Shown here: piece after piece, positions 20,236 to 30,339 of the stretch | Numbering within the stretch: the first letter of the stretch is position 1 | How the letters are laid out: every line of letters begins with the position of its first letter | Source of the DNA: a virus | DNA length: 46,985 bases | Virus record (IMG/VR): IMGVR_UViG_3300025687_000075 | Coordinates: 1-46,985 of that record | Direction: 5' to 3' (one strand) | The notes under the pieces: generated by a model | Told to the model about the DNA's origin: nothing | Seen by the model: only the letters and a program-made list of their open reading frames with translations | Database searches by the model: none | Made by a program: the position numbers and the translations under genes

Positions 20236-20293
20236 ACCTTACGAGTTATTTTATTGCTTGACAATAGATATAAAAAAAATATTATCATGGGAT
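20236..20293. promoter_or_regulatory. divergent leaderless promoters with CATGGGAT element
   Basis: Rightward: TTGACA (20258-20263), 16 bases, TATTAT (20280-20285) followed at once by CATGGGAT (20286-20293) and the ATG at 20294. Leftward: TTGTCA (20264-20259), 17 bases, TAAGGT (20241-20236), then the ATG of the 20000-20230 gene. The two -35 boxes overlap in the near-palindrome TTGACAA. Neither gene has room for a Shine-Dalgarno sequence. Confidence 0.65.
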
Positions 20294-21326: not shown

Positions 21327-21656
21327 ATGGATTATTTAAAAAACGAAAAAGATCCAGAAGAACTTCAACCTGAAGTTAAACTTTGGCGCGCAGTTTTATC
21401 AAAAGCTTTTGAAGATGTATTGTATCGAGGACTCGAACGTCCTTTAATCGTTTATAAAAACGAAGCTCACATGTGGTTTGTTGAAAAAAGTGAAGACTTT
21501 GATTACGTTTGTTATTGCTCTTTATTTGAACCTGAGTATATTAGTGATAAGTATTTTACAATGCTTGAAAGTGGAAAAATTAAATTTACGAAAAAACAAA
21601 TTGAGTATTTAAAATGGAGGAAGATTTATGATCAGCGAAGGAATAAAAACAAGTGA
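21327..21656 (+). CDS. conserved phage hypothetical protein
   Basis: A 109-residue acidic protein with AAGGAGCTATA before the start. The layout KLWRAVLSKAFEDVLYRGLE, a beta-rich middle (HMWFVEKSEDFDYVCYCSLF) and a basic C-terminus (YLKWRKIYDQRRNKNK) matches small proteins common in phages, usually of unknown function. The 15-bp hairpin just upstream may control it. The 3' end overlaps the homing endonuclease by 29 bases. Confidence 0.7.
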   Translation: MDYLKNEKDPEELQPEVKLWRAVLSKAFEDVLYRGLERPLIVYKNEAHMWFVEKSEDFDYVCYCSLFEPEYISDKYFTMLESGKIKFTKKQIEYLKWRKIYDQRRNKNK

Positions 21657-22017
21657 TAAAGCTTACACTGCAGGGTTCATTGATGGCGAAGGTTATATTG
21701 AATCCGTTTGTCGATTAAAGAAAAACGGTCGAGGAGTTGCTTATCCAACGCATACGCATCGAATCGAAGTTTGTAATACGGATTTCGGAATCTTACAACG
21801 ACTTCATCAAACCTTTGGACTTGGTACGTTAATTGAAAGACCCCCACGAGTTACGGTTAACGGGAAACTATCAAAGCCTCAATTAATGTGGAATATTCGT
21901 GGAAGCAAAGCTTATGAATTACTTAAAATGATTTTGCCTTACATGAAACAACAAAGTAAAATTATTACAGCAAATAAAATTATAAAATATTTCGATGAGA
22001 AAACTAAAAATTCTTGA
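21628..22017 (+). CDS. LAGLIDADG-type homing endonuclease, free-standing
   Basis: A 129-residue protein with one LAGLIDADG motif, AGFIDGEGY (residues 15-23); the acidic residue in the motif binds the metal. Single-motif enzymes act as homodimers. The rest (RIEVCNTDFGILQRLHQTFG; WNIRGSKAYELLKMI) fits the fold of this family. TGGAGGAAG precedes the start. It is not inside an intron that I can see; it sits between a phage gene and the cytosine methyltransferase and overlaps the latter by 23 bases. Confidence 0.85.
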   Translation: MISEGIKTSDKAYTAGFIDGEGYIESVCRLKKNGRGVAYPTHTHRIEVCNTDFGILQRLHQTFGLGTLIERPPRVTVNGKLSKPQLMWNIRGSKAYELLKMILPYMKQQSKIITANKIIKYFDEKTKNS

Positions 22018-23497
22018 TTTGTTTTCTGGGATTGGAGGATTTAGCCTCGGATTTGAAAACACAGGATTGTATGAAACCGTAGCATTTTGTGAAGTAGATG
22101 AATATTGCAAACAGTTGCTGCAAAAACATTGGAAAGGTGTTAAGATATATAATGACATTAAAAACCTCAAAGGGAAAGATCTTGAAGAAGCACATGGAAG
22201 AATTGATATTGTCTGCGGTGGTTTCCCCTGCCAGCCGTACAGTGTTGCCGGAAAACAAAAAGGAACCAATGACGATCGATATCTCTGGCCAGAAATGTTT
22301 CGAGTTATTACCGAAGTGCAACCAAGGTGGGTTGTTGCAGAGAATGTGCGAGGAATTGTTAACATCCAAGACGGCGTGGTCTTCGAACGTGTGTGCTCTG
22401 ATTTGGAGAACCAAGGCTACCAAGTACAACCGTTTAATATTCCAGCTGCGGGCGTCGGTGCACCCCACCAAAGGGAAAGAATCTGGATTGTGGGCCACTC
22501 CAAACACTATGGATCACTTGCCTCCGAGATCAAAGGAAGGCACACTCAAAATGATGCACGGTCAACGGAAGGGGAGAACCAGACCATCGAATCTGAGAGA
22601 ACAAGTAGACCCAGAGACAATGAAGTTATGGAGAACACCAACAACAATGGACACGAAAGAGGACTCATTGAAACACGCAACCAAATTAGTCCAAGGGAAA
22701 AATCTCAGATCAACGGGAGCGAGAATACAGATATCTCTAGCGGACGAAGTAATGGTCGAAGAGATAATGAACAATCCCGAATTGATGGAAAAATACAAGG
22801 ACTACGAAATGGTAACGAGAAAGAATTTACCAAAACAACAGGAATTCGTAAACTACATGAGAGAGCAGACGTCAGTCAAAGAGTTACACGAAAAAACTGG
22901 AATCAAGAAGACGACAGTCGAACACTGGTTCAGGAGGGACAAAGCAGGATTCAGTCATCCATCAATAGAAGATTGGAACAAAATCAAAAAGCATCTGAAG
23001 ACAATCAAATACGACGACTTGATGACAACACTTCACTCAATAGAATGGAAACAAGAGATAAAACTGTGGAGAACACCAGACGCACATTGCGACAGGGGGC
23101 CAGCATCGGAGGAGAGAATGAAAATGAAATTAGAGAAGAAGATGCCAATAAGCTTGAACGATCAGGTGAGACACCAGCAAGTGTTATGGCCAACACCGAG
23201 AGCATCGGGTCAAGAGAATCCAGAGAGTTTGATCAAACGCAAGGGAGTGCAGATGGTGCCCATTCCAACATCGAGGGATCACAAAGATTCGGGTTTGAAC
23301 ACGAATTATCAGAAGGCGAAAGAGAAACACCGATTAGCTGGCCACGCAGGTGGGAGTTTGAACCCGACGTGGGTCGAGTGGCTAATGGGGTACAAGGCCG
23401 GGTACACCGACTTAAAGCATTGGGAAATTCTATCGTCCCGCAAATCGCAGAAGAAATCGCAAGAGCAATAGGAAAAGCAGAATATGAGAAAAACTAA
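21995..23497 (+). CDS. dcm: DNA cytosine-C5 methyltransferase
   Basis: A 500-residue enzyme. Motif I is DLFSGIGG (8-15), motif IV GGFPCQPYSVAG with catalytic C79, motif VI AENVRG (E116, N117), motif VIII QRERIW (159-164), and motifs IX-X RLKALGNSIVPQIAEEI at the C-terminus. It transfers a methyl group from SAM to C5 of cytosine, protecting phage DNA or altering expression. Residues from about 171 to 445 are strikingly poor in hydrophobic residues and rich in Asn, Arg, Glu, Ser and Thr. The same bases encode a protein-like sequence in the +1 frame. This stretch is visibly richer in G and C than its neighbours. Confidence 0.93.
   Translation: MRKLKILDLFSGIGGFSLGFENTGLYETVAFCEVDEYCKQLLQKHWKGVKIYNDIKNLKGKDLEEAHGRIDIVCGGFPCQPYSVAGKQKGTNDDRYLWPEMFRVITEVQPRWVVAENVRGIVNIQDGVVFERVCSDLENQGYQVQPFNIPAAGVGAPHQRERIWIVGHSKHYGSLASEIKGRHTQNDARSTEGENQTIESERTSRPRDNEVMENTNNNGHERGLIETRNQISPREKSQINGSENTDISSGRSNGRRDNEQSRIDGKIQGLRNGNEKEFTKTTGIRKLHERADVSQRVTRKNWNQEDDSRTLVQEGQSRIQSSINRRLEQNQKASEDNQIRRLDDNTSLNRMETRDKTVENTRRTLRQGASIGGENENEIREEDANKLERSGETPASVMANTESIGSRESREFDQTQGSADGAHSNIEGSQRFGFEHELSEGERETPISWPRRWEFEPDVGRVANGVQGRVHRLKALGNSIVPQIAEEIARAIGKAEYEKN
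22344..23471 (+). CDS. +1-frame overlapping ORF inside dcm
   Basis: A 375-codon frame wholly inside dcm; the same frame is open from an ATG at 22098. It looks like a real folded protein. It has recurring LWATPNTMD, LWRTPTTMD, LWRTPDAHCD and LWPTPRAS units, and a helix-turn-helix-like segment (VKELHEKTGIKKTTVEHWFRR). Near the C-terminus is GGSLNPTWVEWLMGYKAGYT, a pattern I know from phage methyltransferase-associated proteins. The dcm frame over the same bases is low in complexity, as expected when the other frame carries the stronger constraint. It may be a target-recognition partner. Start and expression are unproven. Confidence 0.6.
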   Translation: MCEELLTSKTAWSSNVCALIWRTKATKYNRLIFQLRASVHPTKGKESGLWATPNTMDHLPPRSKEGTLKMMHGQRKGRTRPSNLREQVDPETMKLWRTPTTMDTKEDSLKHATKLVQGKNLRSTGARIQISLADEVMVEEIMNNPELMEKYKDYEMVTRKNLPKQQEFVNYMREQTSVKELHEKTGIKKTTVEHWFRRDKAGFSHPSIEDWNKIKKHLKTIKYDDLMTTLHSIEWKQEIKLWRTPDAHCDRGPASEERMKMKLEKKMPISLNDQVRHQQVLWPTPRASGQENPESLIKRKGVQMVPIPTSRDHKDSGLNTNYQKAKEKHRLAGHAGGSLNPTWVEWLMGYKAGYTDLKHWEILSSRKSQKKSQEQ

Positions 23498-23798
23498 AGA
23501 CTTAAAAGCAACATTAAAAATTGGAAATTTTTTAGAACGTGTTGAATACATCAAAGAAAAACAAAAAGTTTTAGATTTTTATTTAGAACAACATCAAATA
23601 GAACCTACAGGTGGTTGTTATTATTCTCAATTCACAGCGGACTTAACAAAAGAACTTATGGATCATTTAAAATCTTTTAAACCAGATTTACGTAATGAAA
23701 CAGAAGTTAGATTTTATTATAACAATGCAAAGTTTTTAAAACGATTGCAAAAACTTGATATTCAATATAGAAACAATATTAAAAAAGATGCTAACTGA
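23484..23798 (+). CDS. small hypothetical protein
   Basis: A 104-residue basic, helical protein overlapping the dcm end by 14 bases. It contains EPTGGCYYSQFTADLTKELM in the middle and a C-terminal helix (FLKRLQKLDIQYRNNIKK). No family is recognised. Coupling to the methyltransferase suggests co-expression. Confidence 0.6.
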   Translation: MRKTKDLKATLKIGNFLERVEYIKEKQKVLDFYLEQHQIEPTGGCYYSQFTADLTKELMDHLKSFKPDLRNETEVRFYYNNAKFLKRLQKLDIQYRNNIKKDAN

Positions 23799-23826
23799 AG
23801 AAAACAAATTTCAAGGTGAACCGGCA

Positions 23827-24630
23827 ATGCGAATATTGTCGTTAGGGGCAGGTGTGCAAAGTTCTACGATGGCATTGATGGCAGAAGAGGGTGCCTTTGG
23901 CGTTAAACCCGATGCAGCTATTTTTGCCGACACAGGTTGGGAACCTAAACCAGTAATCGAACATTTAAATTGGTTGAAGAAACAATTATCGTATCCTGTT
24001 TACATTTGTAGCAAAGGCAACATTCGAGAAGATATTCAAAAGGCAATGTCAGCAGATGGTAATCGGTTTGCGTCAGCGCCGTTTTTTACTAAAAATCCTG
24101 ATACCAATAAAAAAGGCATGTTGCGTAGACAATGCACTAGAGAATATAAAATTACTCCCATTCAAAAACAAACAAGAGAGTTAATGAATGTTGGTTTTAG
24201 AAAACGATTTCCAAAAGAAAAATGGGTTGAGATGTGGATTGGAATCTCCATGGATGAGATTATGCGAATGAAACCTGCAAGAATCTGGTGGCAAAAGAAT
24301 CGTTGGCCATTGATTGAAAAAAAGATGTCAAGAGATGATTGCATGACCTGGTACAATGGTAAAGATTATCGAAGACCTGCAAAGTCTGCTTGTATTGGTT
24401 GTCCTTTTCATGATGACAGTTTTTGGGCTGATATGAAAGCTAATCGACCTGAGGAATTTAAAGATGCTTGCGAGATTGATGAAACAATTCGTAAAGGCAA
24501 TAAAAAAGTTAAAGACCAGTTATATATTCACCGATCCTGTGTTCCACTCAAAGATGCACAATTTAAGGTTAAAGAGGATAACCAACTTGATATGTTTAAT
24601 CAAGAGTGTGAGGGCCTGTGTGGATTGTAG
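23827..24630 (+). CDS. PP-loop / PAPS reductase-like protein
   Basis: A 267-residue member of the adenine-nucleotide alpha-hydrolase (PP-loop) superfamily. LSLGAGVQSSTMALM is the pyrophosphate loop and AIFADTGWEP the next conserved strand. LRRQCTREYKI and ACIGCPFHDDSFW supply cysteines typical of DndC/PAPS-reductase-like proteins that may hold an Fe-S cluster. I chose ATG 23827 (after AAGGTGA); 23788 is an alternative in the same frame. Relatives activate or reduce sulfur compounds or modify bases. Next to dcm it may take part in DNA modification, but the substrate is unknown. Confidence 0.8.
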   Translation: MRILSLGAGVQSSTMALMAEEGAFGVKPDAAIFADTGWEPKPVIEHLNWLKKQLSYPVYICSKGNIREDIQKAMSADGNRFASAPFFTKNPDTNKKGMLRRQCTREYKITPIQKQTRELMNVGFRKRFPKEKWVEMWIGISMDEIMRMKPARIWWQKNRWPLIEKKMSRDDCMTWYNGKDYRRPAKSACIGCPFHDDSFWADMKANRPEEFKDACEIDETIRKGNKKVKDQLYIHRSCVPLKDAQFKVKEDNQLDMFNQECEGLCGL

Positions 24631-25068: not shown

Positions 25069-25103
25069 TTGACAAATTAATTTATCCCATGTAAATAAGT
25101 TGC
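25069..25103 (+). promoter_or_regulatory. promoter with reverse CATGGGAT element
   Basis: TTGACA (25069-25074), 17 bases, TAAATA (25092-25097). The spacer ends in ATCCCATG (25084-25091), the reverse complement of the CATGGGAT element. On the minus strand the element is preceded by TATTTA, as at the other sites. Transcription should start near 25104, the ATG of a 34-codon frame. Confidence 0.6.
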
Positions 25104-25208
25104 ATGATTATGTTTATTTTAGTTGGACTAGCAGTTTTAATCGCTACACCGATCGCAATCGGTATACTGAAAACTCTGATTGGTCTTCTGGTGTACGGAA
25201 TATTTTAG
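25104..25208 (+). CDS. 34-residue hydrophobic membrane peptide
   Basis: A very short frame, ATG 25104 to TAG 25206-25208. The peptide is almost entirely hydrophobic (IMFILVGLAVLIATPIAIG, then ILKTLIGLLVYGIF), one or two membrane passes with a single lysine. It follows a good promoter with no room for a ribosome-binding site, so it would be read from a leaderless message. It may be a toxin-like, holin-like or signalling peptide. A longer TTG frame from 25100 in another phase is rejected. Confidence 0.45.
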   Translation: MIMFILVGLAVLIATPIAIGILKTLIGLLVYGIF

Positions 25209-25225
25209 TTGTAATTCTGCCACAG

Positions 25226-25330
25226 TGCGGTCATATTTGGCGGCTATTCTGCGGCGGTTGCCGCATTTCGGCTGCCGTTCCCAGAATTTCAGCCTACTTT
25301 CAGCCTACTAGGCTGACAAAATTAACCGCA
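25226..25330. ncRNA. GC-rich structured element upstream of terS
   Basis: An outer stem TGCGGT (25226-25231) with ACCGCA (25325-25330) encloses a 6-bp hairpin TGCGGC, loop GGTT, GCCGCA (25250-25265). An 11-base tandem repeat TTTCAGCCTAC lies at 25287-25297 and 25298-25308. TAGGCTGA (25309-25316) can pair with the first repeat copy; the second copy is too close to pair fully. The GC content contrasts with the flanks and there is no coding frame that I trust. It could be a structured RNA, an operator or a packaging-related site. Confidence 0.45.
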
Positions 25331-25438
25331 TTCTATAAGGATTATTTAACTTATTCTGGTTTCAGGGTACTTTTTACCTTTTTTTCGTGTTAGAGGTATG
25401 TTTACTATATAATACCTTATAGGAAACTGAAAAATTTA

Positions 25439-25460
25439 TACGGTGATAGCCTTCACCGTA
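25439..25460. promoter_or_regulatory. hairpin in terS leader
   Basis: TACGGTGA (25439-25446), loop of six, TCACCGTA (25453-25460): eight perfect pairs, ending 21 bases before the terS start. A weaker AGGTAT/ATACCT stem lies just upstream around a TATAAT-like sequence (about 25394-25417). There is no T-run. It may influence terS translation or be an RNA- or protein-binding site. Confidence 0.5.
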
Positions 25461-25481
25461 AACTTGTGGTAGAGTAGATCC

Positions 25482-26782: not shown

Positions 26783-26812
26783 TTGACATTAAATCCCATG
26801 ATGATAAAAGGA
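26783..26812 (+). promoter_or_regulatory. promoter ahead of the structured RNA island
   Basis: TTGACA (26783-26788) is followed by a 16-base spacer holding ATCCCATG (26793-26800), the reverse CATGGGAT element, then a poor -10 (TAAAAG, 26805-26810). On the minus strand TATCAT directly precedes CATGGGAT. Transcription would begin near 26815, into the island. Confidence 0.5.
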
Positions 26813-26814
26813 TA

Positions 26815-27330
26815 ATTGGTAGTTCGATTTAAAACTTTTTTATAGCTCCTGTTTTTTATCGACTACGAACGGGTCGACGGTCGACTTTTGACCGAGTTAA
26901 CCGTCGATGCCATCCCTGACCACTAGCGTGGGTATACACACGAGACGCTCAGGTGGTTCTAGTGGTCTGGGATCCGGGTAACTCTATCCTATCGGTAAAT
27001 GTTGTTGCCCGGGTCAACTTCTGGTCTAGTCGCAGCTTCGAGCCGGGACACCCCAGAAGAATTAGTAAAGTGGTGTTAGGACCCATACTAATCGATCCCG
27101 ACCCGGTAGCCTGGGTCGGGGTCACTTTTAAGACTGGGTCGGCCAGATCCAACGGTAGGCGCTAGTGCATAGAATTTTTGCTAGAGGCAAATGACCCAGT
27201 CTTAAATAATTACTGATAGTAATTTGTTGGACCATTGCACATGCTTGTCTAGTCGACTTGCAAGCATTATTGGTTACAGCCTCACTGAAAGGTGATGGTC
27301 CTACTAATTACCCAGTTCCTAATTATCAAT
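26815..27330 (+). ncRNA. candidate large structured non-coding RNA
   Basis: About 500 bases, roughly half G+C by my count over two lines, inside an AT-rich genome and without a credible coding frame. Helices read by eye: 26874-26881 with 26900-26907 (8 bp); 26912-26926 with 26959-26973 (14 bp, one T/T mismatch); 26974-26982 with 27004-27012 (9 bp). Also 27018-27024 with 27053-27059 (7); 27097-27104 with 27113-27120 (8, perfect); 27127-27140 with 27193-27206 (14, perfect). Then 27207-27235 with 27295-27325 (5+4+6+7 bp, with internal loops) and 27241-27247 with 27261-27267 (7). These are nested or side by side, as in a folded RNA. Strand is inferred from the promoter. It resembles large phage RNAs such as GOLLD or ROOL only in general style. 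Confidence 0.7.
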
Positions 27331-27341
27331 AAATTTTTTAG

Positions 27342-27377
27342 TTGACATTTATATTTATAGTCTTATATTCATGGGAT
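27342..27377 (+). promoter_or_regulatory. promoter with CATGGGAT element, gp88-like gene
   Basis: TTGACA (27342-27347), 16 bases, TATATT (27364-27369), then CATGGGAT (27370-27377) at the expected transcription start. GGAAGGAAAT precedes the ATG at 27398, so this message has a short leader. Confidence 0.7.
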
Positions 27378-27397: not shown

Positions 27398-28078
27398 ATG
27401 TTGTTACAAGTAAATACAAATTGGAAAACAATCAAGTCAATGAAGTACGGGGTTTTAACCGGGATCCTATACCTAGCTCCCCATAAAACTAGCGGCAAAA
27501 ATGTTTGTCCCTGGGCTTCGCCTGGGTGTATCGATGGCTGCCTCTATAAAGCCGGGCGTGGTCAGATGATTTCGGTACAGTCGGCCCGAATTAGAAAAAC
27601 GCTGGCCTTTTTTAAAGATCGTACTAAATTTTTGGCTGAGCTGCATAGTGATATAACTATATTATTACGCCGGGCTAAAAAGAAAAATATGAAACTGGCG
27701 ATTCGTTTGAATGGTACTTCTGATTTGCCTTGGGAGAAATATTTATATCAAGGCAAAAATTTAATGGACCATTTCCCGACAGTGACATTTTACGATTACA
27801 CCAAAGGAGATAATCGGATCCATGACAATCAGCCTAGCAATTATCATCTGACTTTTTCACGATCCGAAACAAATGAAAAGGAAGCTTTTAAACTAATTAA
27901 AAAGTCACCAGTCGCGGTTGTCTTTAAAGATAAATTACCGAAGCTTTATAAGAAATACAAAGTTATTAATGGTGATTTACATGACATGCGATTTAAAAAT
28001 AAATCAAATGTGGTTGTTGGCTTACTTGCTAAAGGTCGAGCAAAACAAGATAAATACGGTTTCACGGTTTCCGCTTAA
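27398..28078 (+). CDS. gp88/DUF7227-like phage protein
   Basis: A 226-residue protein. CPWASPGCIDGCLYKAGRG carries four cysteines in a compact cluster; RLNGTSDLPWEKY, FYDYTK, NYHLTFSRSE and VVFKDKLP follow in the order known from gp88-like conserved phage proteins. The cysteines suggest a metal or Fe-S site; the family has no agreed biochemical function. It is driven by its own CATGGGAT promoter directly after the structured RNA island and ends in a strong terminator, so it is a self-contained unit. Confidence 0.8.
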   Translation: MLLQVNTNWKTIKSMKYGVLTGILYLAPHKTSGKNVCPWASPGCIDGCLYKAGRGQMISVQSARIRKTLAFFKDRTKFLAELHSDITILLRRAKKKNMKLAIRLNGTSDLPWEKYLYQGKNLMDHFPTVTFYDYTKGDNRIHDNQPSNYHLTFSRSETNEKEAFKLIKKSPVAVVFKDKLPKLYKKYKVINGDLHDMRFKNKSNVVVGLLAKGRAKQDKYGFTVSA

Positions 28079-28085
28079 CTGTATC

Positions 28086-28127
28086 CTTCCGAGCGGGAAG
28101 AAGGGGCGAGTAATCGCCCCTTTTTTT
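28086..28127 (+). terminator. intrinsic terminator after gp88-like gene
   Basis: A small hairpin CTTCC/GGAAG (28086-28100) is followed by AGGGGCGA (28102-28109), loop GTAA, TCGCCCCT (28114-28121) and a run of seven T. The eight-pair GNRA-capped stem with T-run is a textbook intrinsic terminator; it lies between convergent genes. Confidence 0.9.
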
Positions 28128-29675: not shown

Positions 29676-29948
29676 TTAGTAATTTAAGTTGATTGTAATG
29701 GAAGTTATTCTTCCGTCTTTATTGTAATTACCTTTGACATTATAAAACCCGTCGCCGTGTAATGTTGGAATAACTAACCCGACTTCAGCACCATATTTAT
29801 TTATAAGTTGTTTCGGGTCGTTGCCATTACATATCATGTCATCATAAGTAATGCCTTTGTTATGACCACTCATTTCAACATAACAAGGGTCAGTGATTAG
29901 GAGTTGACCACTGTCAACCCCTGTCCCTCCTAGTAATTGTTTTTTCAT
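29676..29948 (-). CDS. conserved phage protein (DSGQLLITDPCY-type)
   Basis: A 90-residue protein starting at the ATG at 29948 behind GGAGGATACAAAA. The longer frame begins inside that ribosome-binding site. GVDSGQLLITDPCYV is a signature I associate with small phage and bacterial proteins of DUF4241-like type. GDGFYNVKGNYNKDGRI follows as a beta hairpin. The function is unknown. Confidence 0.7.
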   Translation of the reverse strand: MKKQLLGGTGVDSGQLLITDPCYVEMSGHNKGITYDDMICNGNDPKQLINKYGAEVGLVIPTLHGDGFYNVKGNYNKDGRITSITINLNY

Positions 29949-29973
29949 TTTTGTATCCTCCATTTTTATTTAA

Positions 29974-30006
29974 TTGACATCCTAGCATCATAAGATATTA
30001 TGTCAA
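29974..30006. promoter_or_regulatory. palindromic bidirectional promoter
   Basis: TTGACA (29974-29979), 16 bases, TATTAT (29996-30001) rightward; on the minus strand TTGACA (30006-30001), 16 bases, TAGGAT (29984-29979) leftward. Each -35 box overlaps the other promoter's -10 box by one base. Both products then have GGAGGATACA leaders. Confidence 0.75.
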
Positions 30007-30030: not shown

Positions 30031-30339
30031 ATGAGTAATGATAAAAAAGTGATAATGTTTAATGACCTTAAAAAAGGAGACATTATAAAATCAAATCAAT
30101 TAGGAATACTTTGCGAGGGTGTTTTAATGGAGTCTGTTAATCAAGGTCGAGGATTAAAGACTACAATTTTAATTGATGCTAAAGGCTCTCAAATCGGGTT
30201 CTTTGATGAGATGGGCTCAATATATGCTTATCAGATTAAAGAGGTTAAGAGGGGCAATGAGTGGTTAGACGTTGCCCATAAACCTAATGCTAAATTGTTA
30301 AGAACTCAAATAATGAATAATGTATTATTTGGAGATTAA
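30031..30339 (+). CDS. small hypothetical protein
   Basis: A 102-residue protein after GGAGGATACA. FNDLKKGDIIKSNQLGIL and the following strands suggest a small beta-barrel-like fold (KGD followed by strands), and the C-terminus is helical. No known family is recognised. It ends in its own terminator, so it is a single-gene cassette. Confidence 0.65.
   Translation: MSNDKKVIMFNDLKKGDIIKSNQLGILCEGVLMESVNQGRGLKTTILIDAKGSQIGFFDEMGSIYAYQIKEVKRGNEWLDVAHKPNAKLLRTQIMNNVLFGD

Follow-up and report, generated by a model that had tools for sequence, protein, structure and literature searches.

A candidate structured leader RNA with exchangeable hairpins in a relative of HTVC023P-type pelagiphages

Introduction

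What use does a phage make of some 500 nucleotides (nt) that fold strongly and hold no credible gene? The question is raised by an island at positions 26815-27330 (+) of virus record IMGVR_UViG_3300025687_000075, a stretch of 46,985 nt that is referred to here, at its full length, as the window. The initial annotation had read the island as a large structured RNA candidate; it pointed to large phage RNAs such as GOLLD and ROOL, without recognising a diagnostic motif of either. We consider here whether the island codes for protein, acts as DNA or is transcribed, and, in the last case, whether it would form one independent RNA or part of a longer transcript.

Results

Folding, base composition and coding capacity of the island

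The + strand of the island folds with a minimum free energy (MFE) of -199.4 kcal/mol, compared with -150.7 +/- 6.1 in dinucleotide shuffles (z = -8.0, with 0/100 shuffles equally good; z = -8.9 in a repeat run), and nearby coding controls gave z values of -1.5 and +1.1. For the - strand the MFE was -181.1 (z = -6.2; repeat run z = -6.4). Pairs that close the 5' end onto the 3' end of the MFE structure were discounted, the letters of the 3' partner being those that encode the end of a reading frame, ORF X, in related contigs. Seven copies of the pentamer GGGTC/GACCC lie on 26904-27330, whereas shuffles gave 1.1 (at most 5 among 1000 shuffles), an excess due in part to its recurrence in both arms of stems.

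The G+C content rises from 0.346 in the window to 0.46 in the island and 0.55 in its hairpin array, the latter being the richest 213-bp stretch of the window. The jump in G+C noted at first is not diagnostic on its own, since the cytosine-methylase region (22-23.5 kb) reaches 0.52. A LAGLIDADG endonuclease-like ORF (21628-22014) overlaps the start of the C-5 cytosine methylase gene (21995-23497), and 23755-24630 has a PHROG match to phosphoadenosine phosphosulfate reductase (PHROG class host takeover and auxiliary metabolism).

Neither of the two ORFs inside the island had a Pfam or PHROG match, and indels and stops interrupt the + strand frames in the part common to the four array versions. 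Minus-strand frames are open only across the 106-109 nt tested and are shifted between versions. A coding role was dropped on the two missing family matches and the broken + frames, in agreement with the original view that no credible gene lies here.

Relatives of the island and affiliation of the phage

DNA patterns retrieved eleven contigs of IMG/VR in which the 5' domain of the island is present; most of these were also reached through the GP88 gene. These records are fragments from one narrow phage group, and they provide seven distinct versions of the putative leader and four of the array. They are referred to as lineage A (the window and the near-identical contigs L002, L018 and L010), lineage B (L005), lineage C1 (L006), lineage C2 (L003, L004 and L014) and lineage D (L007, L008 and L015). 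The closest cultured relatives by TerL are the pelagiphages HTVC023P (70.6%) and HTVC027P (65.4%), and the corresponding figure for GP88 was 48%. HTVC023P-type phages have been described previously (PMC9599517, PMC12753301), the group being delimited by shared core genes and by a similarity of 45% or more between PolA amino-acid sequences (PMC9599517). From TerL and GP88, the proteins compared here, our best reading is that the phage carrying the island is a relative of the HTVC023P-type pelagiphages.

A covariance model of the leader found no match in the four nearest reference genomes, those of HTVC023P, HTVC027P, 023Pt_psg01 and DSL-LC04. A different leader of ~100 nt precedes the GP88 gene of HTVC023P (L029:3160-3300), following TTGACA and a ATGGGATA motif; inspection by eye suggests that it could fold, and it has no match to the leader model. 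BLASTN searches against 50,697 phage records left the structured part of the island unmatched except for short AT-rich stretches. A relaxed leader pattern gave one match among genome contigs, judged to be chance, and relaxed leader and hairpin patterns applied to viral contigs returned only the contigs already known and chance matches. No further copies of the array were found in the related records, which are fragments.

A conserved 5' domain followed by different genes

Aligned with its relatives, the island resolves into three parts of differing distribution rather than one uniform predicted RNA. The most widely distributed of these, a 5' domain of ~100 nt at 26810-26910 (+) delineated by alignment, RNAalifold, pair counts, a covariance model and conservation, was present in 7/7 distinct versions with covariance-model matches of 95-125 bits. 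RNAalifold placed two helices in it, P1 (26819-26824/26861-26866) and P2 (26873-26881/26900-26908). In P2 and its inner pairs, standard pairing survives one change on both sides and three on one side, although two sequences have lost an inner P2 pair, and in P1 it survives a single one-sided change; the independent changes behind both helices are few. A possible pseudoknot, CCTGT/ACGGG (26848-26852/26869-26873), keeps its pairing through one change, and it overlaps P2 at base 26873, for which the two compete.

The domain is better conserved than the genes that flank it, and in it loop letters are conserved as well as stems. Between lineages A, B or C and lineage D the identity of the leader was 75-79%, against 67-70% for GP88 and 69-72% for an upstream nuclease-like gene; for D1 versus D2 the corresponding values were 95%, 82% and 86%. 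Lineage D has the 5' domain alone, a conserved structured RNA candidate lying directly upstream of a ribosome-binding site (RBS) and ORF, as in a cis leader, and the ORF that closely follows is ORF X in L015 and ORF Y in L007 and L008. With the array included, the same arrangement was found in L003, L005 and L006. What the domain precedes depends on the relative: ORF X, ORF Y or the array. It is thus not tied to one gene.

Hairpins exchanged under a constant shape

The second part of the island is an array of five hairpins, H3-H7 (26912-27123, +), which lineages A, B and C carry and lineage D lacks. Its first member, H3 (26912-26973; stem 26912-26926/26959-26973), has 14 pairs with one T/T mismatch and corresponds to one of the two 14-pair stems first noted in the island. 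Three mutually unrelated H3 sequences occupy this place in A, B and C: their identity of 44-49% is about the chance level for such alignments, whereas the flanking genes share 90-97%. In each of the three lineages H3 nonetheless forms one long hairpin with one mismatch in its lower half, and only 9 (A), 2 (B) and 1 (C1) per 1000 shuffles folded equally well. H4 (26974-27012; stem 26974-26982/27004-27012) differs in sequence between A/B and C and is paired in both.

H5 (27018-27059; CTTCTGG/CCAGAAG) has a U-A to U.G change in B and C1, and H7 (27094-27123; stem 27094-27106/27111-27123; 13 pairs, two of them G.U) has two independent C-G to U.G changes, so that variation in both is of the G.U type; the stem of H6 (27061-27092; ATTAGTA/TACTAAT) is invariant and the hairpin as a whole nearly so. 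What is unusual about the locus is that close relatives have exchanged entire hairpins while the shape stayed constant. The array appears to keep its pairing more than its letters, and this wholesale swap of letters under an unchanged shape suggests that the phage needs the shape itself. A tandem-repeat reading, of the type III antitoxin kind, was dropped, since no hairpin is a copy of another. H5 and H9 have a 12-nt repeat in common, CTGGTCTAGTCG, which was set aside as it could be chance.

A 3' domain in place of ORF X

The third part, H8-H9 (27127 to ~27310, +), is private to lineage A, in which only identical or near-identical copies exist. H8 (27127-27206) has a perfect outer stem of 14 pairs (27127-27140/27193-27206), the second of the 14-pair stems noted at the outset. 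The interrupted 3' stem of about 22 pairs that had also been described is H9 (27207-27310, limits approximate); it is present in the fold, and neither H8 nor H9 has a varied homologue.

In lineage B, lineage C and L015 the corresponding place is occupied by the 84-aa ORF X, which in B and C follows directly on the array. Of this ORF only the last codons (PVPNYQ stop) are recognisable by alignment in the window, at 27312-27332 (+), and no copy was found elsewhere in the window or in other lineage A records. From this alignment it appears that two more hairpins have replaced ORF X in lineage A, leaving a non-coding stretch up to the promoter of the next gene downstream, a GP88 family gene (PF17338, E = 1e-47) at 27398-28078 (+).

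Strand preference of the stem changes

Changed positions were listed for P2, H5 and H7, for H3 (C1 versus C2) and for H4 (A versus B). On the + strand, pairing remains standard through all eight one-sided changes, which pass between Watson-Crick and G.U; read on the - strand, each of the eight gives A.C. A structure at the DNA level or on the minus strand should have both kinds of change. A sign test gave about 0.008, a value to be read in the knowledge that the stems were drawn by + strand rules, which somewhat favours the result, and that the independence of all eight changes is unsure. As every one-sided change pairs only on the + strand, these changes favour the reading of a rightward RNA over that of a DNA palindrome.

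Promoters, a putative operator and terminators

A TTGACA -35 box lies upstream at 26783-26788 (+) and is invariant in 7/7 versions. To this extent the promoter originally proposed there stands; it has no good -10 box at 16-18 nt and is not among the sigma-70 matches, so the start of transcription is uncertain. Within it lies the putative operator ATCCCATG (26793-26800, +). The promoter proposed for the next gene was found as TTGACA-16-TATATT at 27342-27369 (+), scoring 11/12, and a motif search placed the complement of ATCCCATG beside it (27370-27377, -). Six ATCCCATG sites occur in the window, at 20293(-), 25084, 26793, 27377(-), 28794(-) and 30526(-), where 1.2 are expected and at most 4 were seen in 60 shuffles. 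Five of the six are at TTGACA or TTGACT promoter-like sites, and the motif is likely to be the operator of a phage regulator.

No strong + strand terminator was found between the leader promoter and a terminator-like hairpin with a T run 3' of GP88 (28096-28127, +), with one weak candidate at H7; a leader transcript could therefore read through into GP88.

Elsewhere in the window, divergent TTGACA boxes on both strands overlap as a palindrome at 29974-30006, between genes at 29676-29963 (-) and 30031-30339 (+), an arrangement which suggests a shared control region. A second structured non-coding stretch (25205-25475) lies downstream of another promoter with ATCCCATG, flanked by the small terminase gene and a possible hydrophobic ORF of 34 aa. 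The fold z was -4.5 for 25095-25475. Lineages A, C and D share a conserved core, in which one hairpin has changed on both sides (CAGCCTA/TAGGCTG to CAGCGTA/TACGCTG) and a TTTCAGSSTAC motif is repeated; neither Rfam nor BLASTN against phages gave a match to the stretch.

Discussion

The central claim of the initial annotation, that the island is a structured RNA candidate, is borne out by the fold z, by helix-preserving changes, by the G.U bias on the + strand and by the conserved 5' domain. When homologues were compared for compensating changes, as had been proposed, P2, H3, H4, H5 and H7 came through; H6 hardly varies, and H8-H9 lack varied copies.

We place about even confidence in the island specifying a 5' untranslated leader RNA of the GP88 operon, transcribed rightward, structured and acting in cis. 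Transcription would start just before the ~100-nt domain, from the promoter with the putative operator, and the 5' domain would then act in cis, most likely either by capping and stabilising the 5' end of the transcript or through a bound protein that governs expression of the sequence behind it. The array would be a lineage-specific part of the leader selected for its shape, and the loss of ORF X in the window's lineage would have left a mostly non-coding RNA. This reading draws on the fold, on the domain conserved in all versions, on the position of domain or array directly before RBSs and ORFs, on the H3 swap and on the strand-specific changes, as well as on the conserved promoter and operator and on the lack of a strong + strand terminator before the one after GP88. 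It is weakened by the poor -10 box, by the few changes in P1 and P2 and by the pseudoknot competing with P2. The leader need not serve GP88, which has its own promoter, and the size and stability of the array, unusual ahead of a short gene, weaken a purely cis role.

A less probable, though serious, possibility is a discrete trans-acting phage non-coding RNA (a scaffold, a decoy or a small-RNA precursor) with the hairpin chain as its body, transcribed from a promoter of its own or excised from the operon transcript. Between the leader and the GP88 promoter, the window's lineage has kept no gene, the downstream gene varies where the 5' domain does not, and an array that keeps its shape whilst its letters change would suit a structural or decoy role. 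This fits poorly with lineage D, where the 5' domain alone stands before a gene, and with lineages B and C, which keep ORF X behind the array; nor is there a clear terminator at the 3' end of the island or any copy elsewhere in the related, fragmentary records. The two readings are compatible, in that processing of a leader can yield a stable RNA. Doubtful, in our judgement, is the further step to a new class of phage RNA, a hairpin chain selected as shapes that would act as a discrete non-coding decoy or scaffold while the phage infects marine bacteria.

The position of the island between the small and large terminase genes, and the good fold of its - strand (z = -6.2), would also be accounted for by palindromes acting as DNA with no RNA role, such as a replication or packaging site, a recombination hot spot or template-switch hairpins; template switching can make perfect stems such as H8. 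We consider this improbable, since a DNA feature should show both kinds of change, yet 8/8 one-sided changes are G.U-type on the + strand, and conservation in the 5' domain extends to loop letters and not to stems alone. The put RNA of phage HK022 offers a model in which the 5' domain would act near the promoter on RNA polymerase, by antitermination or anti-pausing, so that transcription gets past the hairpins downstream of it. A transcript that opens with two helices, followed by different genes or strong hairpins according to lineage, has the right form, but such a role is very unlikely: no terminator needing bypass lies right behind the domain in A or D (D by eye), no known family matched, and a literature search on likeness to put gave nothing.

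Under the leader reading, the locus suggests a route by which the leader of a gene becomes a mostly non-coding RNA through gene loss. The element is a concrete and testable RNA candidate: it comes in seven natural variants with the head conserved, and H3 has been swapped three ways in nature.

Comparison with known systems

The Rfam scan that the initial annotation had put forward was run with Rfam 15 over the window (gathering score) and the island (E up to 5), and no family matched, GOLLD and ROOL included; for Rfam 15 riboswitches, thermometers and phage leaders, searched against the window and seven relative loci, the best matches were far below gathering scores. The literature, searched for pelagiphage non-coding RNAs, yielded nothing of relevance. 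Type III toxin-antitoxin RNAs, which are tandem near-identical repeats beside a ToxN-like gene, were rejected, as no hairpin repeats another and the tested neighbours had no toxin family.

GOLLD and ROOL, ornate RNAs of phages and prophages (PMC12286853), resemble the island RNA in being large, structured and phage-encoded, with no protein product and with function unknown. GOLLD, however, is found near tRNA islands and is often over 800 nt, whereas the window has no tRNA and the island RNA would be ~500 nt. ROOL RNAs assemble into multimeric nanocages. The island RNA also differs in having no Rfam match, in consisting mostly of side-by-side hairpins with variable stems, and in that parts of it serve as gene leaders in relatives. 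By model match and genomic setting the island RNA is neither, and a single large stand-alone RNA of this kind is not supported, on the same grounds and on the position of the 5' domain as a leader in relatives. Candidate RNAs from Pelagibacter and marine metagenomes (PMC2704228, PMC2864571) are likewise marine, structured, non-coding and derived from comparative analysis; the island RNA differs in its phage location and in having no Rfam match, though those candidates may not all be in Rfam.

By its features the island RNA is best placed among structured phage leaders, as a broad kind, with no described family found for it. The pseudoknot in the leader of T4 gene 32 mRNA (PMC535899, PMC3014915) is likewise part of a structured phage 5' leader, as the island has a possible pseudoknot in its own. 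The T4 leader serves one gene and binds that gene's own product, whereas in the island the gene behind the domain varies and a binding protein is hypothetical; it nevertheless provides a model for how the 5' domain of the island could act.
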